Of a stretch of DNA of 64,000 nt, positions 9,092-64,000 are shown piece by piece; within the stretch, counting starts at the first letter, position 1, and the number at the start of each line of letters is the position of its first letter. The DNA is from Streptomyces sp. SCSIO 30461 (GTDB taxonomy: Bacteria > Actinomycetota > Actinomycetes > Streptomycetales > Streptomycetaceae). The notes beneath the pieces were generated by a model, which saw only the letters and a list, made by a program, of their open reading frames with translations, was not told the DNA's origin and did not search any database. Both the position numbers and the translations under genes were made by a program. The stretch spans positions 3,154,001 through 3,218,000 of the forward strand of contig NZ_CP146101.1 of the NCBI RefSeq assembly GCF_037023745.1. The letters run 5' to 3'.

Positions 9092-12000
9092 TCAGTCCCG
9101 CACCAGCCGCAGTGTCAGGATCTGGAAGGGGCGCATTGACACCGCCACGGCGTCGCCCTCGACGGGGAGCGGTGGGTGTTCGTGCAGCGGGCGCTCCAGC
9201 AGATCGGTGACCACCGCGCGTGCCGCGTGGAATCCGGTGCGGAGCGTGGTCGCGGTTCGCCCGCCCAGCGACTCGTAGAGCCGCACCACGACATCCCCCG
9301 ACCCGTCGTCGGCGAGCTTCACCGCCTCGATGACGGCAGACGGCCCGTCCGTGGTGACGACGGGGGGAACCGCCGCACCGCCGGGGCCGATCCTGAGCGG
9401 AAGGTTGAGGGCGTAGCCCTCGGCGATCGCGTCCTCGATCGTCGCGCCCGGCAACAGGGAGTACGTGAAACGGTGCAGGCCCTGGTCGGCGTCCGGGTCC
9501 GGAACACGGGGGGCACGCACCAGACTGAGCCGCACGGTGGTGGTCGTCCCACCGTCCTCTTCCCGGGTCGCACGCGATACGTCGTGGCCGTATGTCGCGT
9601 CGTTGAGCAACGCGACACCGTAGCCGGACTCGCCGACGTGCACCCAGCGGTGTCCGGATACCTCGAAACGGGCCGCCTCCCAGCTGGTGTTGGTGTGCGT
9701 GGGCCGGTGCACATGGCCGAACTGGATCTCCGCGGTGGTTCGGTCGGCCCGCACATCGAGCGGGAATGCCGCCTTGAGGATCTTCTCCCGCTCATGCCAG
9801 TCGATGTCGGTGGCGATGTCGATCCGCCGGCTCCCGGCGCGTACGGTCACGGTCTGCGTGATCCGCGAGCCCCGGCCGAACGCGCGCTCCACCCGCAGTG
9901 CGCCGAGCAGCGGATCGCTCTCGGCCACGGTGACGACCGGGTCGTCCAGCAGATCCTTCCACTGCCCCAGATAGTGCTTGTCGATGTCCCAGGCATCCCA
10001 GTAGTTGGGAAGATCCGTGTGCAGCCGCAGCAGATTGCCCCTGCCGCCCGGCGCGAGCACCTCGCGGTCCGCCGGCAGATCGCGGACGGAGGAGACGGTG
10101 CCGTCGTCCGCCAGCTCGACCCGCACCAGACCGTTGTCCAGGATCTGGTGCCCGATCACCCTGACCGGTGGCCGGGCGGGGCGTGTGCCCGCCGCCACCG
10201 GTGCGCAGCCCGACGCGGGCACATCCACGAACGCCGCGACCGCGCCGTCGGACAGGCGTGGCAGCCCGGGGTCGAGCGCACCGGCCAGCGCCGACGGCAC
10301 GCGTACCACCTCCGAGCGCGGCCGGGGACCGGCGTTGTAGGCCCACACCTCCAGCGGGCCGGCCCCGCCCACCGCCTCCAGCGCCTGCGCGGTCAGCGCG
10401 TCGAGCTCCGCCGCGACCCGGGCGTACTCCGCCTCGGCCTCCCGGTGCACCCAGTTGATCGACGAGCCCGGCAGGATGTCATGGAACTGGTGCAGCAGCA
10501 CCGTCTTCCACAGCCGGTCGAGTTCGGCGTGCGGATACGTGTACCCGGGCACCCGCAGTGCCGCCGCCGTTGCCCACAGTTCGGCTTCCCGCAAGGCGTG
10601 TTCACTGCGGCGGTTGCCCTGTTTGGTGCGCGCCTGGGTGGTGTAGGTGGCCCGGTGCAGTTCCAGATAGAGCTCGCCCGACCAGACCGGGGCGTCCGGG
10701 TACTCAGCCTGGGCCGCAGCGAAGAAGGCGTTCGGATGCTCGATCACGACCTTCGCCGAGCCCTCCAGATCGGCCAGCCGCCGAGCCCGCTCCAGCATGT
10801 CCCGGTTCGGGCCGCCTCCGCCGTCGCCGTGTCCGAACGGAGCGAGTGAGCGCGTACCCCGGCCCTTCTCCTGGTAGTTGCGGACCGCATGGGCCAACTC
10901 ACCTCCCGAGAAGACGGCGTTGTAGGTGTCGACCGGCGGGAAGTGGGTGAAGATCCGGGAGCCGTCGATGCCCTCCCACCAGAAGGTGTGGTGGGGCAGT
11001 TTGTTGCTCTGGTTCCAGGAGAGCTTCTGGGTGAGGAACCACTTCATCCCGGCCAGCCTGGCGAGCTGCGGGAACGCGGCCGTGTATCCGAAGGAGTCGG
11101 GCAGCCACACCCCTTCCGCCTCGATCCCGAAGGCGTCGAGGAAGAAGCGCTTGCCGTGCACGAACTGGCGGGCCAGGGCTTCGCCACCGGGCAGGTTGCC
11201 GTCCGCCTCCACCCACATCCCGCCGACCGGCGCCCACTGGCCGCGCTTCACCGCGTCCTCGATCCGTGCCCACACCTGCGGGTGGTTCTCGCGTACCCAG
11301 GCGTACTGCTGGGCCTGTGAGCAGGCGAAGACGAACTCCGGGTACTCCAGCGCCAGGGCTGTGGCGTTCGCGAAGGTCCTGGCCGCCTTCCGTTTGGTCT
11401 CGCGGATCGGCCACAGCCAGGCGCTGTCGATGTGTGCGTGCCCGACGGCCGACAGGGTGTGCGCACCGGCGTGCGCCGGTGACGCGAGGGCGGGTGCGAG
11501 TACGGCCCGGACGGCGGCGGCGGTGCCGGGGATGTCGTCCAGGTCGAGCCGGTCGAGTGCCCGGTCCAGGGTGTGCAGGATCTCGTGTCGCCGGGGATCG
11601 TGCTCGGCGAGCTCCAGCATCAGCTCGTACAGCACCTGTGTGTCCAGGGACAGGTGCCAGACCTCCTCGTCGAGTACGGCGAGATCGGCGCGGGCGAAGG
11701 TGTAGAGCGGATCCCGGCCCGCGGTGCGCTTGTCGCCCATCGGGGTCGGGCGGCGGAAGCGGTCGGCGAGGATGTCCGGGTTGGACGCGGCCTCGATGAG
11801 GTACGCGACCCGCTCGCCACCGCTCGCGGGCGAGCCGACGGGGACATACTGGTTCTGCGGGTTGACCGCCTTGAGCGGGGTGCCGTCCGGCAGGTGTACC
11901 AGCGCCTCCGCCTGGTTGCCCGGCCAGCTGCTGACGAAGCCCAGGTCGAACCACGCCTCCACCCTGCGCCCCGCCCAGTCGGCGGGCACCTCGCCCCGTA

Positions 12001-50584: not shown

Positions 50585-51448
50585 TCAGTCCTTGCCGATC
50601 AGATCGGCGGGGAACGCGCCGGAAGCGACCGCCGTGCCCAGGAAGCCGTAGGCGAGTTCGGTGAGGCGTTCGACGGACGCCTGACCGAGGTGCTCGTAGG
50701 GTGCGGCGTCGACGCGGTCGGTCCCGTCCTCCAGGTCCTCGCGCAATGCCCTGCCCTCCGCGGTCAGTTCGCCGTCGGCGCCGAGCAGTCCTCGCCCGCG
50801 CAGCCGCTCGCGCGCCGCGTCCCAGTCGCCGCGCCGCCAGCCGCGGCTGGCGAGTGCCCAGCGGGGTGACATTCCCTTGCCGCTGGCGGTGTGGCTGGCC
50901 ATCGCCTCCAGTGGGTCGAGCCCGGCCGACAGCAGCACGGCGAGGTGGCCGTCACCGCGGTGTTCGCGCAGCAGGGTCGCGGCGTGCCAGTAGGCCAGGT
51001 GCGGTTCGTCGGGCACCGGCAGATCCGCGTGTGCCGAGTAGAGCGGCCGGGCGTGGCGGGTGCACGCCTCCGCCGCGCGCAGTGCCAGCCCCGCGGCCTC
51101 TGCCATCGCATCGGACTCGACCGCCTCCTCGCCGAGGAGCCTGCGCAGTGTCGCGTCGACGGCTCGCAGTCGGGCGGTCAGCACGGCTGAGGGGGACGCT
51201 GTCTCCCACACCGAGGGGAAGTGGCGGGAGAGCAGCTCGTGGTTGTAGTTCGAGAACGCCGCCGCGACCGTGCCCGGACCGACTGCGCCCAGCGCGGCGG
51301 CCCGCCCGGAGAGCGCGGCGGCGGTGCGGTCCTCGACCCCGATCCCGGCGAAGGCCGCGGGGAGGTCCGGCGAGAAGTACACGAGGGCGTGTGTCGAGTT
51401 GAGGGCGCTGGCGCAGCGGCGTGCCGTGCGCGGGGGAAGAGAGCTCAT
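50585..51448 (-). CDS. SCO6745-family conserved actinobacterial protein
   Basis: A 287-aa helical protein of a family I know by its S. coelicolor member SCO6745. It begins RTARRCASALNSTHALVYFSPDL and has a middle rich in Ala-containing helices (RLRAVDATLRRLLGEEAV) and a possible winged-helix end (RGRGLLGADGELTAEGRALREDLEDGTD), like that of MarR-type proteins. The ligand and function are unknown. It is divergent from the GlxA-type regulator. Confidence 0.8.
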   Translation of the reverse strand: MSSLPPRTARRCASALNSTHALVYFSPDLPAAFAGIGVEDRTAAALSGRAAALGAVGPGTVAAAFSNYNHELLSRHFPSVWETASPSAVLTARLRAVDATLRRLLGEEAVESDAMAEAAGLALRAAEACTRHARPLYSAHADLPVPDEPHLAYWHAATLLREHRGDGHLAVLLSAGLDPLEAMASHTASGKGMSPRWALASRGWRRGDWDAARERLRGRGLLGADGELTAEGRALREDLEDGTDRVDAAPYEHLGQASVERLTELAYGFLGTAVASGAFPADLIGKD

Positions 51449-51593
51449 GGCCGCACGTTACCGACTGGTTGGTACGTCCGGAAGTCCGGGCGACCGCAGG
51501 GGGCCGGGGCGTCCTCGTGAGCACCGGACTCATGGCAGGAAAGGTGGGTTTCTTGTCATTGCAGCCATAAGGGATGGCGCTGATCATGGAGAC

Positions 51594-52628
51594 ATGCCCG
51601 AACAGCCCGAGCAAGTGCGGCGCAGCCCGAAGGACGATCGGACCAGGCAGGCCGAGCGAACCGTGCTGGTCGTGCTCTTCGACGGAGTGCAGAGCCTCGA
51701 TGTCACCGGCCCCCTGGAAGTCTTCGCCGGCGCCGGCAAGGCGCCCGGGGCGCCGTTCGCGTACCGCATCCGTACCGCCTCACTCGACGGGGCATCCGTC
51801 CGCACTTCCAGCGGGCTCACCCTGGTGCCCGACCGCGCACTCGGCGACTGCGGACCGCCGCACACCCTGATCGTCCCGGGCGGTGAGGGCACCAGGCACT
51901 CCGACGCCCAGCTCATCGAGTGGCTGGTGGCCCATGCCCCGGGTGCGCAGCGCCTCGTCTCGGTGTGCAGCGGCGCCCTGTTGCTGGCCGAGGCAGGTCT
52001 GCTGGACGGGCACCGGGCGACGACGCACTGGTCCCTCTGCGACCGTCTCGCCCGCAACCATCCGGAGGTGGCGGTCGATCCGGATCCGATCTTCGTACGG
52101 GACGGCAGGATCGCCACATCGGCCGGTGTCACCGCGGGGATCGACCTGGCGCTCGCACTGGTCGAGGAGGACCTGGGCCGGGACATCGCCTTGAATGTGG
52201 CCCGCCACCTGGTGGTGTTCCTGCGCCGCCCGGGCAACCAGGCGCAGTTCAGCGCGCAGCTCTCCGCGCAGACCGCCCGCCGTGAGCCGCTGCGCGACGT
52301 ACAGCAGTGGATCACCGAGCATCCCGGCGGCGACCTTTCGGTCGACGCCCTGGCCGCCCGCGCCCGGCTCTCACCCCGCCAGTTCGCCCGCGCCTTCCGC
52401 TCGGAGACCGGAACCACGCCTGGCCGCTACGTCGACCGAGTGCGGCTGGAGCACGCCCGGCGGCTCCTGGAGGACACGGACGACGGCATCGAGCAGATCT
52501 CACGCGCCTGCGGCTACGGCACGGCGGAGGCGATGCGGCGCGCCTTCGTCAAGGCCGTCGGCACGGCGCCCGCCGAGTACCGCCGCCGCTTCAGCGCCCC
52601 GCCTGCCTCGGCGGGGTCCCACCGCTGA
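51594..52628 (+). CDS. GlxA-family transcriptional regulator (DJ-1 domain plus AraC helix-turn-helix)
   Basis: A 344-aa regulator. The DJ-1/PfpI domain spans residues about 22-195 (VLVVLFDGVQSLDVTGPLEV, TLIVPGGEG, SVCSGALLLAEAG), with the nucleophile-elbow Cys in SVCSG. Two AraC helix-turn-helix units follow (LSVDALAARARLSPRQFARA, IEQISRACGYGTAEAMRRAF). Such proteins usually control a neighbouring DJ-1 enzyme gene, and one follows 133 bases downstream. GGAG is three bases before the ATG. The spacer 52629-52761 is a low-complexity CCGCTGACC/CCTGACCA stretch. Confidence 0.9.
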   Translation: MPEQPEQVRRSPKDDRTRQAERTVLVVLFDGVQSLDVTGPLEVFAGAGKAPGAPFAYRIRTASLDGASVRTSSGLTLVPDRALGDCGPPHTLIVPGGEGTRHSDAQLIEWLVAHAPGAQRLVSVCSGALLLAEAGLLDGHRATTHWSLCDRLARNHPEVAVDPDPIFVRDGRIATSAGVTAGIDLALALVEEDLGRDIALNVARHLVVFLRRPGNQAQFSAQLSAQTARREPLRDVQQWITEHPGGDLSVDALAARARLSPRQFARAFRSETGTTPGRYVDRVRLEHARRLLEDTDDGIEQISRACGYGTAEAMRRAFVKAVGTAPAEYRRRFSAPPASAGSHR

Positions 52629-52761
52629 CCGTCCTGGCCGCCCTGGCCGCCGCTGACCCTCCTGACCACAGCTGAGCGCACCGGCCACCACCGGCCGTCC
52701 TGACCACCGCTCGCTCACCGTTCCGACCGAAGACAGCACCGACGCAGAGGAGTTCCGCATC

Positions 52762-53403
52762 ATGCAGATCGCCATAATGCTCTACGACCGCTTCACCGCA
52801 CTCGACGCCGTGGGTCCGTTCGAGATGCTCAGCCGGATGCCCGGTGCGCAGACCTTCTTCGTGGCCGCGAGCGCCGGACCGGTGCACAACGACCAGGACA
52901 ACCTCATCCTGCACGCCGAACGGAGCTTCGCCGATGTGACCGCCGCGGACATCGTCCTCGTGCCCGGTGGCCCCGGATCGCGTGACGCGATGAAGGATCC
53001 GGTGCTGCTGGACTGGCTGCGCGCCGTGGACGCCACCAGCACCTGGACCACATCCGTGTGCACCGGGTCCCTCGTGCTGGCGGGTGCCGGACTGCTCGAA
53101 GGGCGCCGGGCCACCAGCCACTGGCTGGCACTCGACGCACTGCGGGATCTGGGCGTGGAGCCGACGGGGGAGCGCGTCGTCTTCGACGGCAAGTACGTCA
53201 CCGCCGCCGGTGTGTCCTCCGGGATCGACATGGCGCTTCATCTGCTCGGCCGGATCGCGGGTGACCGGGTCGCCCAGAGCGTGCAGTTGCTCACCGAGTA
53301 CGACCCGCAGCCGCCCTACGACGCGGGCTCACCCGAGAAGGCGCCGACGGAGATCGTCGCCCACTGGCGCGGCCTCGGTCGGACGGTGGTCGAGGCCGGC
53401 TGA
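52762..53403 (+). CDS. DJ-1/PfpI family protein (isonitrile-hydratase-like)
   Basis: A 213-aa enzyme-like DJ-1 protein: IAIMLYDRFTALDAVGPFEML, IVLVPGGPGSRDAM, the elbow Cys in TSVCTGSLVLAGAGLL, and ATSHWLALDALRDLGV. This order matches bacterial isonitrile hydratases, in which the Cys adds to the isonitrile carbon; the activity is only a family guess. It is the likely target of the GlxA-type regulator just upstream. GAGGAG stands some nine bases before the ATG. Confidence 0.88.
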   Translation: MQIAIMLYDRFTALDAVGPFEMLSRMPGAQTFFVAASAGPVHNDQDNLILHAERSFADVTAADIVLVPGGPGSRDAMKDPVLLDWLRAVDATSTWTTSVCTGSLVLAGAGLLEGRRATSHWLALDALRDLGVEPTGERVVFDGKYVTAAGVSSGIDMALHLLGRIAGDRVAQSVQLLTEYDPQPPYDAGSPEKAPTEIVAHWRGLGRTVVEAG

Positions 53404-57348: not shown

Positions 57349-58332
57349 TCAGCGGGCGGCGGCCTCCGGATGCCGCAACAGCCATCCCTCCCAGGCCGAC
57401 TCGATCATCTCGCGCACCCCGCGCGTGGCCGTCCAGCCCAACTCCTTGCCGATCCGCTCGACCGAGGCGACGGCTCGCGCGGCGTCGCCCGGCCGCCGCG
57501 GCGCCACGACCGCAGGGGTGCCGTGCCCCGTCACCTCAGCGACCAGCCGGGCGAGCTCGCGGACCGAGACGCCCTCGCCGCGACCCACGTTCAGGGTGAG
57601 ATCGCCGGTGTTGTGCTGAGTGGCCAGCCGCCGGGCCACGGTCAGATGGGCGTCGGCCAGGTCAGCGACGTGGATGTAGTCGCGGACACAGGTGCCGTCG
57701 GGGGTCGGGTAGTCATCGCCGAAGATCCGCGGGGCCTCACCCTGGGTCATCCGGTCGAAGAACATCGGAATGACGTTGAACACCCCGGTGTCGGCGAGAT
57801 CGGGGTGTGCCGCGCCGGCCACGTTGAAGTACCGCAGGCAGGCTGTCGCGATTCCGTACGCCTGACCTGCTGCCCTGACCAGCCACTCTCCGGCGAGCTT
57901 GGTCTCGCCGTACGGGTTGATCGGAACGGCGGGGGTGTCCTCCGTGATCAGTTCCACGTCGGGCACGCCGTACACGGCGGCGGACGAGGAGAACAGGAAA
58001 CGGCGGACACCCGCGGCGACCACGGCGTCGAGCAGGACCGTCAGTCCGTGCACATTGGTGTCGTAGTAGCGCAGCGGATGCTCCACGGACTCGCCGACCT
58101 GCTTCTTCGCCGCGAGATGCACCACACCCGTGACCGCGTGCTCGGCGAGCGCCCGGTCCAGCACCTCCCGGTCGAGCACCGAGGCCCGAACCAGGGGCAC
58201 GCCTTCGGGGAGCCGTCCCGGGACCCCGGTCGAGACATCGTCGAGCACGACGACCCGCTCCCCGGCCTCGGCCATGACTCCCGCCACATGGGCGCCGATG
58301 TAGCCCGCACCGCCTGTAATCAGCCACGTCAT
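57349..58332 (-). CDS. galE: UDP-glucose 4-epimerase
   Basis: A 327-aa extended SDR. The NAD loop is WLITGGAGYIGAHVAG, the catalytic Ser in SSSAAVYG and the pair YGETK (Tyr, Lys) are intact. PEVFNVIP-like GVFNVIPMFFDRM and GTCVRDYIHVADLA fit GalE. It converts UDP-glucose to UDP-galactose. It is divergent from the phosphatidyltransferase / glycosyltransferase operon and could provide the sugar donor for its GT2 enzyme; that link is inference. GGGTGG precedes the ATG by seven bases, and TAGGGT nearby could be the -10 of a very short leader. Confidence 0.93.
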   Translation of the reverse strand: MTWLITGGAGYIGAHVAGVMAEAGERVVVLDDVSTGVPGRLPEGVPLVRASVLDREVLDRALAEHAVTGVVHLAAKKQVGESVEHPLRYYDTNVHGLTVLLDAVVAAGVRRFLFSSSAAVYGVPDVELITEDTPAVPINPYGETKLAGEWLVRAAGQAYGIATACLRYFNVAGAAHPDLADTGVFNVIPMFFDRMTQGEAPRIFGDDYPTPDGTCVRDYIHVADLADAHLTVARRLATQHNTGDLTLNVGRGEGVSVRELARLVAEVTGHGTPAVVAPRRPGDAARAVASVERIGKELGWTATRGVREMIESAWEGWLLRHPEAAAR

Positions 58333-58587
58333 AGCCGCCACCCTACGGGGCGCAGCAGGCGGGCCTTCCCCGCGCGGTTGGCACGCGGTTCGCACGCGGT
58401 TTGTCGGTCGGGGTGCCGATCGTTGATGATCTAGCTGGGTGGGGGGGCCGAGGCGACCCCACAGCACCCGAACCTCGGTGAGCCCGGGATTCCGGTCATC
58501 CGATAGCCTCAACCGACATGCCGCCGCCCGGGTGCCCGGGTCGGGCCGCCGTGCAAGACACCCACCAGCGCCAAGGAGTGAGTCCGT
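58333..58587. promoter_or_regulatory. divergent control region between galE and the phosphatidyltransferase operon
   Basis: Contains the direct repeat GCACGCGGTT (58381-58390 and 58392-58401), a run of seven G at about 58441, and TAGCCT at about 58505-58510, a plausible -10 giving a leader of some 70 bases to the operon. AGGAG at 58574-58578 is the ribosome site of the first gene. Confidence 0.4.
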
Positions 58588-60441
58588 CTGTCGACCGCCA
58601 TCCTCACCGGTCCGCCGGTACCCGGATCGCCGCTCGAAGGCGATCTGAGGTCGCTGGGCTTCGACCTTCGCACGGCCACCGATGCTGACGAGACCGCCGC
58701 GCTCGTCGCCGCGGCCCCGGCAGGCGAACGCGTCGCCGTCGTGGACCCGCGGCTCGTCGGTCATGTGCACGCCCTGCGCCTCGGGCTGACCGACCCCCGC
58801 TTCCCGACAGCTGCCGTGCCGGGCGCGGTGATGGCTCAGCCCGAGGCGCGCACGGTGCTCCTGGACGCCCTACGCGCAGTGGCCGGGGGAGCGCCCGCCG
58901 CCGACCGCGCTGGAACCGCCGGTGAGTGTGTCGCCACGCCGGGGCAGGCCGCCGCGCCCCTTGCAGACCGGGTCGCCGACGCGCTCGCCGCGGAGGGCGC
59001 CGCGCCGCACCGCCCCGAACTCGGCTCGCTCGTGGCGACCGTGCCACGTGACCCGCGCGCCCGCGACGAGGCCCGGCAGGCCGTCGAAGCCGTGGACGAC
59101 GAAGCCGTACGGCTTCGCTCCGCCGTGAAGTCCCGTGACGGCTTCTTCACCACCTTCTGTATCAGCCCGTACTCGCGCTACATCGCCCGCTGGTGCGCCC
59201 GCCGCGGACTGACTCCGAACCATGTCACCACCGCTTCGCTGCTCACCGCGCTGATAGCGGCGGGAGCCGCCGCCACGGGTACCCGTGGCGGCTATGTCGC
59301 CGCGGGTGCCCTGCTCCTCTTCTCCTTCGTGCTGGACTGCGCCGACGGGCAGCTCGCCCGCTACGCCCTGAAGTACTCCACGATGGGCGCCTGGCTCGAC
59401 GCCACTTTCGACCGGGTCAAGGAGTACGCCTTCTACGCCGGCCTCGCCCTGGGCGCGGCTGGGAACGGCGACGACGTCTGGGCCCTGGCCCTCGGCGCGA
59501 TGGTGCTCCAGACCTGCCGGCATGTCGTGGACTTCTCGTTCAACGAGGCCAATCACGACGCGACCGCCAACACCAGCCCCACCGCGGCGCTCTCCGACCG
59601 GCTCGACAGCGTCGGCTGGACGGTCTGGGTACGCCGCATGATCGTGCTGCCGATCGGCGAGCGCTGGGCCATGATCGCCGTGCTGACGGCGCTCACCACG
59701 CCCCGGATCGTGTTCTACGCCCTGCTCGTCGGCTGTTCCTTCGCGGCCCTGTACACCACGGCCGGCCGTGTGCTGCGTTCGGTGACCCGCAAGGCGCACC
59801 GGACCGACCGCGCCGCCCAGGCACTCGCCGACCTCACGGATTCGGGTCTGCTCGCCGACAGCTTCGCGGTGGCCTTCGCCGCAGTCGTCCGGCGCCTGCC
59901 CGCGATCGCACCCCTGCTGGCCGCGGCGGCCGGAGGGGCCGTGGTGGTGAGCGCGGCCGCCTTCACCGCCCCCGGCAGCTGGTGGCCGGTCGCCGCAGCC
60001 GCGCTGTATGTCGCGACGTCCGGTTTCGCCGTCGCCCGGCCGCTGAAGGGCGCGCTCGACTGGCTCGTCCCCCCGGTCTTCCGCGCCACCGAGTACGGCG
60101 TGATCCTGCTGCTCGCCGCCCGGTCGGGTGTGGAGGGGGCCCTGCCCGCGGCTTTCGGGCTGGTCGCGGCAGTCGCCTACCATCACTACGACACGGTCTA
60201 CCGCATCCGCGGTGGCACCGGCGCGCCGCCCGCCTGGCTGGTGCGCGCGATCGGCGGCCACGAGGGCCGCACGCTCGCGGTGGCGGTACTCGCCGCCGTA
60301 CTGGTGGCCCACGGCTCGGGATTCACCGTCGCGATCACCGCGCTCGCGGTGGCCGTGGCCGTGGTGGTGCTCGTGGAGTCCATCCGCTTCTGGGTCTCCG
60401 CAGGAGCACCCGCCGTACATGACGAAGGAGAACCTGCATGA
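58588..60441 (+). CDS. CDP-alcohol phosphatidyltransferase, large actinobacterial type, CTG start
   Basis: A 617-aa membrane protein. Residues 1-170 are soluble (STAILTGPPVPGSPLEGD, RVAVVDPRLVGHVHALRLG). The CDP-alcohol transferase core is complete, DCADGQLARYALKYSTMGAW, with Asp250, Asp253, Gly267, Asp271 and Asp275 in the D-x2-D-G-x2-A-R-x8-G-x3-D-x3-D pattern. About 300 residues with several spans follow. It should move a phospho-alcohol from a CDP carrier to an acceptor, or the reverse. No ATG, GTG or TTG lies between the in-frame stop at 58579 and residue 52, while protein-like sequence starts at CTG 58588, nine bases after AGGAG. The stop overlaps the next ATG (ATGA). Confidence 0.85.
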   Translation: MSTAILTGPPVPGSPLEGDLRSLGFDLRTATDADETAALVAAAPAGERVAVVDPRLVGHVHALRLGLTDPRFPTAAVPGAVMAQPEARTVLLDALRAVAGGAPAADRAGTAGECVATPGQAAAPLADRVADALAAEGAAPHRPELGSLVATVPRDPRARDEARQAVEAVDDEAVRLRSAVKSRDGFFTTFCISPYSRYIARWCARRGLTPNHVTTASLLTALIAAGAAATGTRGGYVAAGALLLFSFVLDCADGQLARYALKYSTMGAWLDATFDRVKEYAFYAGLALGAAGNGDDVWALALGAMVLQTCRHVVDFSFNEANHDATANTSPTAALSDRLDSVGWTVWVRRMIVLPIGERWAMIAVLTALTTPRIVFYALLVGCSFAALYTTAGRVLRSVTRKAHRTDRAAQALADLTDSGLLADSFAVAFAAVVRRLPAIAPLLAAAAGGAVVVSAAAFTAPGSWWPVAAAALYVATSGFAVARPLKGALDWLVPPVFRATEYGVILLLAARSGVEGALPAAFGLVAAVAYHHYDTVYRIRGGTGAPPAWLVRAIGGHEGRTLAVAVLAAVLVAHGSGFTVAITALAVAVAVVVLVESIRFWVSAGAPAVHDEGEPA

Positions 60442-61175
60442 TCGGCCTCGTATTGGCAGCCGGTGCCGGACGGCGTCTGCGTCCGTACACCGACACGCTT
60501 CCGAAGGCCCTCGTGCCCGTGAACGGGGACCTGTCGGTCCTCGACCTCACGCTGAAGAACTTCCGGGAGGTCGGTCTCACCGAGGCCGCCGTCGTCGTCG
60601 GCTACCGCAAGGAGGCCGTGTACGCGCGCAAGGACGAGCTGGAGGCCGCGTACGGCCTGAAGCTCACCCTGATCGACAACGACAAGGCTGAGGAGTGGAA
60701 CAACGCCTACTCCCTGTGGTGCGCCCGTGAGGTGCTCAAGCGGGGCGTGATCCTCGCCAACGGCGACACCGTGCACCCGGTGTCCGTGGAGCGGACCCTG
60801 CTCGCCGCACGCGGTGGCGGCCAGAAGATCATCCTTGCCCTCGACTCGGTGAAGCAGCTCGCCGACGAGGAGATGAAGGTGATCACCGCCGACGGCGAGG
60901 GCGTGCGGAGGATCACCAAGCTGATGGACCCGGCCACCGCCACCGGCGAGTACATCGGCGTCACCCTGATCGAGCCGGAGGCCGCCGTAGAGCTCGCCGA
61001 CGCGCTGAAGACCACTTTCGAGCGCGACCCCGACCTCTACTACGAGGACGGCTACCAGGAGCTGGTCGACCGCGGCTTCACCATCGACGTGGCACCGATC
61101 GGCGACGTCAAGTGGGTCGAGATCGACAACCACGACGACCTCGCGAAGGGCCGTGAGATCGCGTGCCAGTACTGA
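60438..61175 (+). CDS. sugar/polyol-phosphate nucleotidyltransferase
   Basis: A 245-aa cytoplasmic nucleotidyltransferase of the LicC / inositol-phosphate cytidylyltransferase kind. The signature GLVLAAGAGRRLRPYTDTLP with the catalytic Lys in PKALVPV opens the protein; NAYSLWCAREVL and ILANGDTVHP (metal Asp) follow, and VKWVEIDNHDDL supplies the second Asp. It would join NTP, perhaps CTP, to a phosphorylated sugar or polyol. It overlaps the upstream transferase gene by four bases and the downstream dehydrogenase by 13, so the three products are probably made together. Its substrate could be the glycerol-1-phosphate formed by the next gene. Confidence 0.88.
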   Translation: MIGLVLAAGAGRRLRPYTDTLPKALVPVNGDLSVLDLTLKNFREVGLTEAAVVVGYRKEAVYARKDELEAAYGLKLTLIDNDKAEEWNNAYSLWCAREVLKRGVILANGDTVHPVSVERTLLAARGGGQKIILALDSVKQLADEEMKVITADGEGVRRITKLMDPATATGEYIGVTLIEPEAAVELADALKTTFERDPDLYYEDGYQELVDRGFTIDVAPIGDVKWVEIDNHDDLAKGREIACQY

Positions 61176-62227
61176 CCCGGCTCATCCCGTCGCCGGTCGT
61201 CGTCGACATCGGCCGCGGGGCGATGGACGATCTGGCCGGCCTGCTGGCCGACCAGAGGATCTCCGCGTCCGGCGAGCTGGCGTTCGCGATCAGCGGCGGC
61301 TCGGGCCAGGCGTTGCGCGAGCGGCTCGCCCCGGTGCTGCCGGGCGCCGACTGGTATGAGGTCGCCGACGGCACCATCGACTCGGCGGTCAGGCTGGCCG
61401 ACGCGGTCAAGGGCAAGCGGCGCTACGACGCGGTCGTCGGCCTCGGCGGCGGCAAGATCATCGACGTGGCGAAGTACGCCGCTGCGCGGGTCGGCCTGCC
61501 CTTGGTGGCCGTCGCCACCAACCTGGCCCACGACGGCCTGTGCTCCCCGATCTCCATCCTGGACAACGACAACGGGCGCGGCTCGTACGGTGTCCCCTCG
61601 CCGATCGCCATGGTGATCGACCTCGACGTGGTGCGCGCCGCCCCGGTCAGATTCGTCCGCTCGGGCATCGGCGACGTGATCTCCAACATCTCGGCGATCG
61701 CCGACTGGGAGCTGTCCCACAAGGTCACCGGGGAGGCCGTGGACGGCCTTGCCGCCGCCATGGCCCGCACCGCGGGCGAGGCGGTGCTCCGCCACCCCGG
61801 CGGTGTCGGCGACGACGAGTTCCTCACGGTGCTGGCGGAGGCGCTGGTGCTCTCCGGAATCGCCATGTCGATCAGCGGTGACTCCCGGCCTTCGTCCGGC
61901 GCCTGCCATGAGATCAGCCACGCTTTCGACCTGCTCCACCCCAGGCGGGCCGCCAGCCACGGCGAGCAGGTCGGCCTCGGTGCCGCCTTCGCGATGCATC
62001 TGCGCGGCGCCCACGAGCAGTCCGCGCTGTTCGCCGAGGTGCTCCGCAGGCACGGGCTGCCGGTGCTGCCCGAAGAGATGGGCTTCTCTCCCGAGGAGTT
62101 CGTCCGCGCCGTCGAGTACGCGCCGCGGACCCGGCCAGGGCGCTTCACCATCCTCGAACACCTCGACCTGTCCACCGACCAGATCAGGGACGCGTACGCC
62201 GACTATGCCAAGACCATCCGTAGCTGA
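61163..62227 (+). CDS. sn-glycerol-1-phosphate dehydrogenase-like (EgsA/AraM family)
   Basis: A 354-aa member of the iron-containing alcohol dehydrogenase superfamily, nearest to archaeal EgsA and Bacillus AraM. NAD loop: VVGLGGGKIIDVAKYAA (residues 91-107). The group-specific ATNLAHDGLCSPISIL follows. Metal ligands are Asp171 (GIGDVISN), His249 in SGACHEISHAFD and His266 in SHGEQVGLG. It should reduce dihydroxyacetone phosphate to sn-glycerol-1-phosphate, the stereoisomer of bacterial glycerol-3-phosphate. No PcrB or GGGP synthase gene is in the window to use it. Start is GTG at 61163, inside the end of the previous gene. Confidence 0.88.
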   Translation: MPVLTRLIPSPVVVDIGRGAMDDLAGLLADQRISASGELAFAISGGSGQALRERLAPVLPGADWYEVADGTIDSAVRLADAVKGKRRYDAVVGLGGGKIIDVAKYAAARVGLPLVAVATNLAHDGLCSPISILDNDNGRGSYGVPSPIAMVIDLDVVRAAPVRFVRSGIGDVISNISAIADWELSHKVTGEAVDGLAAAMARTAGEAVLRHPGGVGDDEFLTVLAEALVLSGIAMSISGDSRPSSGACHEISHAFDLLHPRRAASHGEQVGLGAAFAMHLRGAHEQSALFAEVLRRHGLPVLPEEMGFSPEEFVRAVEYAPRTRPGRFTILEHLDLSTDQIRDAYADYAKTIRS

Positions 62228-62984
62228 ACTCCGCCCGGTGGTGCACCCGGCGGGTGTGAAGGACCGGCGCAGCGGTGAGCACTGGGGCGGCCGCCTCTAC
62301 ATGCGGGAGATCTCGCTGCGCATCACCCGTGTCCTGGTCACCACCAAGGTCACGCCCAACCAGCTGACCTACCTGATGACCCTGGCCGGTGTGCTGGCCC
62401 TGCCCGCCCTGCTGGTGCCGGGCATCTGGGGCGCCGTGCTCGGCGTCGTGATGGTCCAGCTCTACCTGCTGCTGGACTGCGTGGACGGCGAGGTCGCCCG
62501 CTGGAAGAAGCAGTACTCCCTGTCCGGCGTGTACCTGGACCGGGTCGGCGCGTATCTGTGCGACGCCGCGGTGCTGACCGGCTTCGGGCTGCGCGCGGCC
62601 GACCTGTGGGGAGGTGGGCAGATCGACTGGCTGTGGGCCTTCCTCGGCACCCTGGCCGCGCTCGGTGCCATCCTGATCAAGGCCGAGACCGACCTGGTCG
62701 GTGTTGCCCGCCACCAGGCCGGGATGGAACCGGTGAAGGAAGCTGCGGCGGAGCCGCGCTCCTCCGGGATGGCGCTCGCCAGGCGGGCCGCGGCCGCGCT
62801 GAAGTTCCACCGGCTGGTGCTCGGCATCGAGGCGTCGCTGCTCATCCTGGTGCTCGCCATCGCCGACCAGATCCGGGGCGACCTGTTCTTCACCCGCCTC
62901 GGCGTCGCCGTGCTCGCGGGTATCGCGCTGCTCCAGACCGTGCTGCACCTCGTGTCGATCCTCGTCTCCAGCAGGCTGAGGTGA
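62205..62984 (+). CDS. second CDP-alcohol phosphatidyltransferase-family protein, altered motif
   Basis: A 259-aa polytopic membrane protein. The motif reads LDCVDGEVARWKKQYSLSGV then YLDRVGAYLCD. The first three Asp and the A-R-x8-G part are present, but the fourth Asp, the proposed general base (D-x3-D), is Ala. Four or five spans surround it. An N-terminal soluble stretch has HPAGVKDRRSGEHWGGRLYMREISL. It starts inside the end of the dehydrogenase gene (23-base overlap) and has no ribosome site of its own, so it depends on coupling. Either another residue acts as base or it works together with the first transferase. Confidence 0.83.
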   Translation: MPRPSVAELRPVVHPAGVKDRRSGEHWGGRLYMREISLRITRVLVTTKVTPNQLTYLMTLAGVLALPALLVPGIWGAVLGVVMVQLYLLLDCVDGEVARWKKQYSLSGVYLDRVGAYLCDAAVLTGFGLRAADLWGGGQIDWLWAFLGTLAALGAILIKAETDLVGVARHQAGMEPVKEAAAEPRSSGMALARRAAAALKFHRLVLGIEASLLILVLAIADQIRGDLFFTRLGVAVLAGIALLQTVLHLVSILVSSRLR

Positions 62985-62992
62985 GCGGGGCC

Positions 62993-63898
62993 ATGACCAG
63001 TGACAGCACGACCGACGGCATGAAGCTCGGTGCCGTCATCATCACGATGGGCAACCGCCCCGACGATCTGCGCGCCCTGCTCGACTCCGTCACCAAGCAG
63101 GAGGGCGAGCCGGTCGAGGTGGTCGTGGTCGGCAACGGCGCCCCCGTGACCGGTGTGGACGGCTTCCCGTTCGTACGGACCGTCGATCTGCCCGAGAACC
63201 TGGGGATCCCGGGCGGGCGCAACGTCGGCATCGAGGCATTCGGGCCCGCCGGTACGCAAGTCGACGCGCTGCTGTTCCTCGACGACGACGGTCTGCTGCC
63301 CGACAACGACACCGCGGAACGGGTGCGCCGGGCCTTCGCCGACGATCCGAGCCTGGGCATCGTCAGCTTCCGGATCGCCGACCCGGAGACCGGTGCCACC
63401 CAGCGCCGCCATGTGCCGCGGCTGAGGGCGTCCGACCCGATGCGCTCCTCGCGTGTGACGACCTTCCTGGGCGGCGCCAACGCCGTCCGCACCGAGGTCA
63501 TCGCGCAGGTCGGCGGGCTCCCGGACGACTTCTTCTACGCCCACGAGGAGACCGATCTCGCCTGGCGGGCGCTGGACGCCGGCTGGATGATCGACTACCG
63601 CTCCGACATGGTGCTGCACCACCCCACCACCCCGCCGTCGCGGCATGCGGTCTACCACCGCATGGTGGCTCGCAACCGAGTGTGGCTGGCTCGTCGCAAT
63701 CTGCCTGCGCCCCTGGTGCCGCTGTATCTCGGCGTGTGGATTCTTCTCACACTCGCCAGGCGTCCTTCGACGTCGGCGCTCAAGGCGTGGTTCGGTGGAT
63801 TCAAGGAAGGCTGGACGACTCCGTGCGGACCCCGTAGGCCCATGAAGTGGCGTACGGTGTGGCGGCTGACAAGGCTGGGCCGACCACCGGTCGTATGA
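62993..63898 (+). CDS. family 2 glycosyltransferase
   Basis: A 301-aa GT2 enzyme, GT-A fold. Landmarks: LGAVIITMGNRPDDLRALL, VVVVGNG, the donor-loop ENLGIPGGRNVGIEA, the metal motif LLFLDDDGLLPDND, and the acceptor/base region GGLPDDFFYAHEETDLAWRA. A hydrophobic stretch near residue 240 (LVPLYLGVWILLTLA) may hold it at the membrane. The ATG at 62993 follows GAGGTGA at seven bases; a GTG at 62981 in frame is the alternative. It is last in the operon and could glycosylate the lipid or polymer made by the phosphatidyltransferases. Confidence 0.9.
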   Translation: MTSDSTTDGMKLGAVIITMGNRPDDLRALLDSVTKQEGEPVEVVVVGNGAPVTGVDGFPFVRTVDLPENLGIPGGRNVGIEAFGPAGTQVDALLFLDDDGLLPDNDTAERVRRAFADDPSLGIVSFRIADPETGATQRRHVPRLRASDPMRSSRVTTFLGGANAVRTEVIAQVGGLPDDFFYAHEETDLAWRALDAGWMIDYRSDMVLHHPTTPPSRHAVYHRMVARNRVWLARRNLPAPLVPLYLGVWILLTLARRPSTSALKAWFGGFKEGWTTPCGPRRPMKWRTVWRLTRLGRPPVV

Positions 63899-64000
63899 CC
63901 GGCCGTGGTCTGAGAGCATCGGGCGTAATCCGGGTCCTGGCCGCCACCTGAGCGCCCAAACTGACGCGCATCTTGAACACGAAAGTTTCAACTTGTGAGT
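63899..64000. other. terminal 102 bases, no gene
   Basis: The sequence becomes AT-richer towards the end. TTGAA-CACGAAAGT-TTCAA at about 63973-63991 is an imperfect palindrome that may belong to the promoter of the next gene. No terminator hairpin is obvious after the glycosyltransferase. Confidence 0.3.

Follow-up and report, generated by a model that had tools for sequence, protein, structure and literature searches.

A window of 64,000 nucleotides from Streptomyces sp. SCSIO 30461 was analysed, corresponding to positions 3154001-3218000 of a one-contig genome of 8.05 Mb. Towards its end lies a compact gene block centred on two overlapping genes, a nucleotidyltransferase (ntp) and a dehydrogenase (gdh) that appears to belong to the sn-glycerol-1-phosphate dehydrogenase (G1PDH) branch. 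Two relatives of CDP-alcohol phosphotransferases, a glycosyltransferase, an epimerase and an ABC exporter surround this pair, an assembly that may make and export a glycosylated phosphoglycerol. The features are as follows, where L### labels denote sampled loci, G### labels denote genomes of a phylum sample, and L003 is the locus containing the DNA past the window end.

57349-58332, minus strand: galE, UDP-glucose 4-epimerase, divergent from the block (TIGR01179, 319.3 bits against a cut-off of 262.3)
58469-58483, minus strand: degenerate PHO-box-like site ahead of cdpA that does not reach significance in this genome
58588-60441, plus strand: cdpA, with a degenerate cytidylyltransferase-like N-terminus, an intact CDP-alcohol phosphotransferase domain and a C-terminal DUF5941 (Pfam, model fold)
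60438-61175, plus strand: ntp, LicC/IMPCT-like (COG1213-type) nucleotidyltransferase (Pfam NTP_transferase)
61163-62227, plus strand: gdh, predicted G1PDH (EgsA/AraM)-branch dehydrogenase (Pfam Fe-ADH_2)
62205-62984, plus strand: cdpB, CDP-alcohol phosphotransferase fold without the fourth motif Asp (Pfam CDP-OH_P_transf)
62993-63898, plus strand: gt2, GT2 glycosyltransferase (Glycos_transf_2 PF00535, E 7.5e-11)
63995-64000, plus strand: first bases of a tagG-like ABC permease gene (whole gene L003:9995-10924; PF01061)
L003:10911-11732, plus strand: tagH-like ATPase, overlapping the tagG-like gene, past the window end (PF00005)

An initial annotation of this DNA had described five genes that overlap or nearly abut, with galE divergent, and the open reading frame coordinates agree; Pfam likewise returns the families it named, namely the dehydrogenase, the nucleotidyltransferase, two CDP-alcohol transferases and the GT2 enzyme. 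The overlaps are 4 nt between cdpA and ntp, 13 nt between ntp and gdh and 23 nt between gdh and cdpB, the last counted from ATG 62205, which agrees with the cdpB start in relatives (the cdpB scripts ran from a downstream codon, 62220); gt2 follows 8 nt after cdpB. The apparent start of cdpA is CTG 58588, preceded by aaggag and, two codons upstream, by an in-frame TGA (region 58573-58590); the N-terminus reads CTG-Ser-Thr-Ala-Ile-Leu-Thr-Gly. In other Streptomyces the corresponding codon is CTG (L096, L098, L101) or TTG (L097, L099, L100), and L102 has an in-frame GTG slightly upstream of this position.

The solved structures closest to gdh are 3ce9, named 'glycerol dehydrogenase' (E 5.2e-42), and the archaeal G1PDH 4rgq (E 1.4e-41), while other glycerol dehydrogenase structures reach at most 68 bits. 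Among NCBIfam models, gdh scores 237.5 bits with PRK00843 (G1PDH), 84.2 with GldA and 64.0 with glycolaldehyde reductase, and the lead of the G1PDH model over both alternatives exceeds 150 bits for the window protein and for 5/5 relatives. Model ranking and solved relatives thus agree in suggesting that the dehydrogenase sits on the G1PDH branch. The metal ligands Asp171, His249 and His266, which the initial annotation had reported as intact, are indeed present in the window protein, and an alignment of 107 rows (the window and 106 locus rows, three contigs being entered twice) bears this out: each His column holds 106 His and one gap, and column 171 holds 97 Asp, 8 Glu and two gaps. A motif of the form SRPxSG, which may read the phosphate of the substrate, is also largely kept; its exceptions include L091, a faulty row, and Thr in place of Ser241 in three rows. 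Of the 120 best listed relatives of gdh, every one with a named organism is from Streptomyces. The window's own genome carries a second, weaker Fe-ADH_2 match of 42.8 bits at G000:C1:5075604-5076038 (L002, L107).

For ntp, the nearest solved relatives found by phmmer are LicC (1jyk, E 2.8e-14) and 4jd0 (E 5.1e-8), the latter being the IMPCT treated in PMC12275187. When paired by motif order, R13, K23 and D110 of ntp correspond to IMPCT R16, K26 and D112, residues named in that paper; they occur in 97 of 98 aligned rows with one gap, and E228 and D230 in 98/98. Relatives and active-site residues therefore point to an enzyme of the LicC/IMPCT type, in line with the LicC-like label given earlier.

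Evidence that these two genes act together comes from their conservation. Within the genus, the order galE-cdpA-ntp-gdh-cdpB-gt2-tagG-tagH is found in 8/8 sampled Streptomyces (the own genome and seven others). Beyond it, two samples were used. In 198 genomes of the phylum, a gdh relative was counted at 150 bits or more and an ntp neighbour at E 1e-12 or better, no more than 1.5 kb away in the same orientation; the second sample came from named genomes, of whose 536 loci the best 80 were compared, three of them being the same contigs as G183, G086 and G108. These 80 loci span Nitriliruptorales, Microthrixaceae, Solirubrobacter, Haloechinothrix, Micromonospora, Catellatospora, Nocardioides, Motilibacter, Embleya, Acidothermales and others. 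The phylum sample holds 26 gdh relatives in 25 genomes, 21 of which have an ntp relative so placed; as for the remaining four, ntp adjoins gdh as a weak match in G017, lies 3.3 kb away in G003 and 15 kb away on the same contig in G108, and G058 is cut by contig ends. Among the best 80 loci, 71 show an ntp-gdh overlap of exactly 13 nt. Exceptions include L120, where the overlap is 22 nt, L112, where the genes are 1.7 kb apart, and six loci that have no ntp in the DNA examined (one of them, L117, is G108). The pair is even duplicated, in inverted orientation, in Micromonospora orduensis (L168, 4448-8868).

Recurrence of overlap and order on this scale exceeds chance. The ntp-gdh core is not confined to Streptomyces and occurs in many actinobacterial lineages. 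Because the 13-nt overlap and the neighbourhood of the two genes recur in this way, the product of gdh is probably the substrate of ntp, and the proposal that the genes form one coupled pathway gains support, as far as gene order can tell. The same overlap bears on an ordinary teichoic acid pathway through CDP-3-glycerol, in which ntp would take sn-glycerol-3-phosphate (G3P) from GpsA and gdh would be an ancillary glycerol dehydrogenase. The CDP-glycerol known from bacteria is the G3P form (PMC8262930), and a link to the Pho system would suit teichoic acid (PMC4173021). However, the fixed overlap across many lineages speaks for gdh supplying ntp, and gdh is closer to G1PDH than to glycerol dehydrogenase, which makes this explanation improbable.

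Conservation of the whole five-gene block across actinobacteria, also raised earlier, stands for Streptomyces, but beyond the genus it is mainly the core that is kept and the other genes are patchy. At 60 bits or more, the best 80 loci contain matches to cdpA in 14 cases, cdpB in 19, gt2 in 16, tagG in 15, tagH in 18 and galE in one, and tagG and tagH (any match) stand together in 16. DUF5941 is found in 11/198 genomes, always beside ntp; in Streptomyces it and cdpA form one fused gene, while L076 (Nitriliruptorales, 9251-9634) has it as a separate frame. In 9 of 39 clustered loci, nearly all from Micromonosporaceae, gdh and ntp are kept and are followed by a different CDP-alcohol phosphotransferase (Pfam on the L126 copy), whose four motif Asp are intact in 9/9 sequences; about 3 kb further on, several of these loci have a relative of an L181 gene that Pfam calls Bac_transf. 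Elsewhere, genes of the TagF family (Glyphos_transf) lie near the pair in L093 (313.8 bits), L123 (31.1) and L186 (30.5), L123 also has a UDP-galactopyranose mutase near the pair, and the genes that come after gdh in L081 are those of a CDP-alcohol phosphotransferase and a WecG/TagA protein. By their gene families, the surroundings in L093, L123, L186 and L081 are glycopolymer settings.

A role already described for a bacterial G1PDH is that of AraM in Bacillus, whose route ends in an ether lipid, and a similar prenylation of glycerol-1-phosphate (G1P) by PcrB could be imagined here. Several points favour such an archaeal-type ether lipid: gdh lies on the same branch as AraM, a polyprenyl synthase gene occurs in the hopanoid cluster downstream of the block, and Streptomyces species with orthologs of G1PDH, GGGPS and DGGGPS have been listed (Coleman et al., PMC6431249). 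Against it, PcrB/GGGPS gave no match in the own complete genome, where the initial annotation had also supposed it to be missing, while 7/14 control genomes did give one; the 198 genomes yielded no full-length PcrB, and the fragments they contain cover about 35-73 model positions at no more than 25 bits. Since no full-length PcrB is at hand and gdh is usually partnered by ntp, G1P seems to be passed to a cytidylyltransferase instead, and an ether lipid is very unlikely.

Downstream steps can be approached through the membrane enzymes. In cdpA, the CDP-alcohol phosphotransferase motif D..DG..AR(8)G...D...D is complete, and D250, D253, D271 and D275 are invariant in 20/20 rows. Archaeoglobus AF2299 and IPCT-DIPPS are among the nearest folds to the models of both phosphotransferases, cdpA and cdpB; the predicted N-terminus and membrane domain of cdpA align with AF2299, and the modelled cdpA-DUF5941 fusion aligns with eukaryotic choline phosphotransferases. 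That a phosphotransferase of one type or another stands beside the pair (cdpA and cdpB, the Micromonosporaceae type, L081) counts in favour of a phosphoglycerol pathway. For gt2, weak NCBIfam matches of the MftF, EpsD and GlfT1 kind were obtained, every one under cut-off.

The block continues past what the initial annotation covered, with a tagG-like ABC-2 permease gene that begins at 63995, 96 bp after gt2. Both the permease (PF01061) and the ATPase (PF00005) are over the Pfam cut-off. Their best named models are galactan Wzm for the permease, and teichoic-acid TagH followed by galactan Wzt for the ATPase, all under cut-off; the ATPase reaches 169.9 bits with the NCBIfam TagH equivalog, whose cut-off is 320. 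With TagGH counted as part of the block, export of a lipid-linked or polymeric product becomes more likely than formation of a plain membrane lipid. After tagH come hpnC-, hpnD- and hpnE-like genes, a polyprenyl synthase and a squalene-hopene cyclase (L003 12137-19143, named by eye), and hpnC-hpnD continue the order in the own genome and 7/7 other Streptomyces; in L098 hpnC comes only after a gap of 3.5 kb. This proximity would suit a product tied to hopanoids, such as a phosphoglycerol or glycosyl hopanoid. However, the hopanoid-type cluster adjoins the block in Streptomyces only: hpnC, hpnD, hpnE and shc have no match of at least 60 bits in the 80 named non-Streptomyces loci (at most 10 kb on each side), and in Embleya, Nitriliruptorales and others the block has no accompanying hopanoid genes. 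A hopanoid product is therefore hard to credit, if marginally easier than an ether lipid.

On the other side of the block, the window order is a NUDIX gene, which we take to be idi by its position and our own reading, a CDF gene, and then galE and cdpA. In S. coelicolor, SCO6750 is an IPP isomerase (PMC3897704), SCO6751 a CDF exporter (PMC5472717), and the hopanoid genes are SCO6759-71 (PMC2374992). PhoP is predicted to target SCO6753, which has a PHO box and is altered at the 0.5% level in a phoP mutant (PMC4173021). If S. coelicolor shares the order, SCO6753 would be the first or second gene of the operon, given the window order of NUDIX, CDF, galE and cdpA. In addition, the seven other Streptomyces carry reverse-strand, GTTCACC-type 11-nt direct repeats upstream of cdpA. 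The number of shuffles out of 400 that reach the score of the site is 0 in L096, L101 and L102, 1 in L098, 15 in L097 and L099, and 87 in L100, whose repeats are not clearly above shuffles. The pathway is possibly under phosphate control. Elsewhere in the window, two adjoining DJ-1/PfpI-like genes, recognised by eye, occupy 51270-53403, and the first ends in an AraC-like helix-turn-helix.

From these elements a pathway can be proposed. As a G1PDH family member, gdh would reduce dihydroxyacetone phosphate (DHAP) to sn-glycerol-1-phosphate, and ntp, translationally coupled to it, would join G1P and CTP into CDP-1-glycerol. With its full catalytic motif, cdpA would then use CDP-1-glycerol to donate glycerol-1-phosphate to an acceptor alcohol in the membrane; cdpB, more speculatively, could be a second, atypical phosphotransferase for another acceptor, perhaps polyprenyl phosphate or the like, for which a general base would not be required. 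Judged by family and gene order, gt2 may add a sugar, with GalE supplying UDP-galactose, and TagGH may carry the product to the cell surface. We put at roughly one in two the chance that the block serves synthesis and export of such a glycosylated phosphoglycerol, be it a phosphoglycerol glycolipid or a teichoic-like product, and regard CDP-1-glycerol as the intermediate with equal reserve. The wider claim is more tentative, falling somewhat short of even odds: that actinobacteria possess a conserved archaeal-type route from DHAP through G1P and CDP-1-glycerol to a surface phosphoglycerol, and that their G1PDHs serve glycerophosphate activation and not ether lipids.

A number of observations weigh against this proposal. 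The gdh score and those of five relatives (208-262 bits) lie under the G1PDH equivalog cut-off of 413, Asp171 is replaced by Glu in L080, L120, L140, L167, L170, L177, L184 and L187, and R242 of SRPxSG is replaced in L120, L169 and L176. A Halobacterium protein annotated as G1PDH is a glycolaldehyde reductase without notable G1PDH activity (PMC9700705). CpgD, an IMPCT-like cytidylyltransferase with 4jd0 as top structural match, uses phosphoglycerates and gave no product with glycerol-1-phosphate (PMC12275187); family alone therefore does not set the substrate of ntp. In cdpB, D1-D3 are present in all rows and D4 is His (23) or Ala (8) in 31/31 rows, 28 of them distinct, with an acidic residue four places past D4 kept in 31/31; both phosphotransferases are family members, as first annotated, but this degenerate motif had gone unnoticed. 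Pfam finds no TagA/TagB/TagF-type enzyme among the eight genes of the Streptomyces block, and one TagF-family gene lies elsewhere in the own genome. Short PcrB-model fragments occur in 3/25 G1PDH-bearing genomes (G058, G108, G157), that of G058, which spans 47 model positions, being marginally above the cut-off (24.7 bits, cut-off 23.9). Lastly, 274/400 shuffles reach the score of the PHO-box-like site in the window, which is therefore degenerate there.

Some of these points would also fit a coupled pair that makes another nucleotide-activated polyol, from another keto- or aldehyde phosphate, with the rest of the pathway unchanged. Besides the sub-threshold scores of gdh and its relatives, VNG_6270G is a known family member with a changed substrate (PMC9700705), and COG1213 cytidylyltransferases are reported to act on phosphosugars, phosphocholine and phosphoglutamine, alongside CpgD on phosphoglycerate (PMC12275187). 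Against this, the G1PDH model keeps its lead over the glycolaldehyde reductase and glycerol dehydrogenase models in every protein scored, and DHAP would be the simplest substrate for an EgsA-type pocket. Another polyol is thus unlikely, though more plausible than the teichoic, hopanoid or ether-lipid explanations.

The route through CDP-1-glycerol would matter in several ways. In the debate on the lipid divide, the G1PDH homologues of bacteria are puzzling: a deep bacterial clan has been described whose members are mostly Firmicutes and Actinobacteria (PMC6431249), bacterial G1PDHs have been placed inside archaeal ones in an analysis whose alignment includes a Streptomyces G1PDH (PMC5059525), and G1PDH/AraM is the only G1P route known at present, yet others have been argued for E. 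coli (PMC13400652; for general background see PMC9385802, PMC3123327, PMC4244643 and PMC6767563). Coupling to ntp and the lack of a full-length PcrB offer these enzymes a different, testable job. If true, bacteria would gain CDP-1-glycerol, judged likely absent from them in 2021 (PMC8262930), and antibiotic-producing genera a cell-envelope pathway, possibly phosphate-controlled. In its boldest form, a Kennedy-like phosphotransferase would put G1P directly on a lipid alcohol; the headgroup would then have the handedness natural to phosphatidylglycerol, with no need for CDP-diacylglycerol. The archaeal-handed phosphoglycerol pathway first suggested is favoured by the coupling, the G1PDH branch and the missing PcrB, but its product is less exotic than the term suggests: phosphatidylglycerol and lipoteichoic acid already contain sn-glycerol-1-phosphate units (PMC8262930), and product chirality alone is therefore no proof of route. 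The novelty would be the CDP-1-glycerol route to such a phosphoglycerol, not its handedness.

Searches of the open-licence PMC literature showed no description of this pathway. Its components are of known kinds, and it is the coupling of a G1PDH-type and a LicC-type enzyme to phosphotransferases and an exporter that, as far as searches show, is undescribed as a pathway. The synteny of araM, CDP-alcohol transferase, GT2, nucleotidyltransferase, tagGH and crtB genes in Streptomyces has been noted (PMC13118837), in a text whose available part offers neither a pathway nor a substrate, nor a comparison across the phylum. Archaeal EgsA and Bacillus AraM share with gdh the metal ligands, the SRPxSG region and the best solved relatives; gdh differs in its coupling to a nucleotidyltransferase in place of PcrB/GGGPS and in staying under the NCBIfam equivalog cut-off. 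With the Archaeoglobus glycerophosphoinositol/di-inositol-phosphate pathway, whose IPCT-DIPPS and AF2299 products are soluble phosphodiesters, the block shares a cytidylyltransferase and a CDP-alcohol phosphotransferase, but it adds an ABC exporter and a GT2 enzyme and has its active nucleotidyltransferase encoded by a gene of its own. In A. fulgidus lysate, a cytidylyltransferase activity preferring Gro1P has been recorded (cited in PMC8262930). CpgD, from the ceramide diphosphoglycerate pathway of Caulobacter, is likewise an IMPCT-like cytidylyltransferase feeding a lipid headgroup, and differs from the proposed ntp in the substrate preference given above (PMC12275187). Finally, the wall teichoic acid pathway (TagD, TagF, TagGH) has in common with the block a TagGH-like exporter and, presumably, a CDP-glycerol-type intermediate, and TagF/TagA relatives lie near the pair in a few other genera; in the Streptomyces block, which has no TagF/TagA, a LicC-type enzyme with its own dehydrogenase takes the place of TagD.

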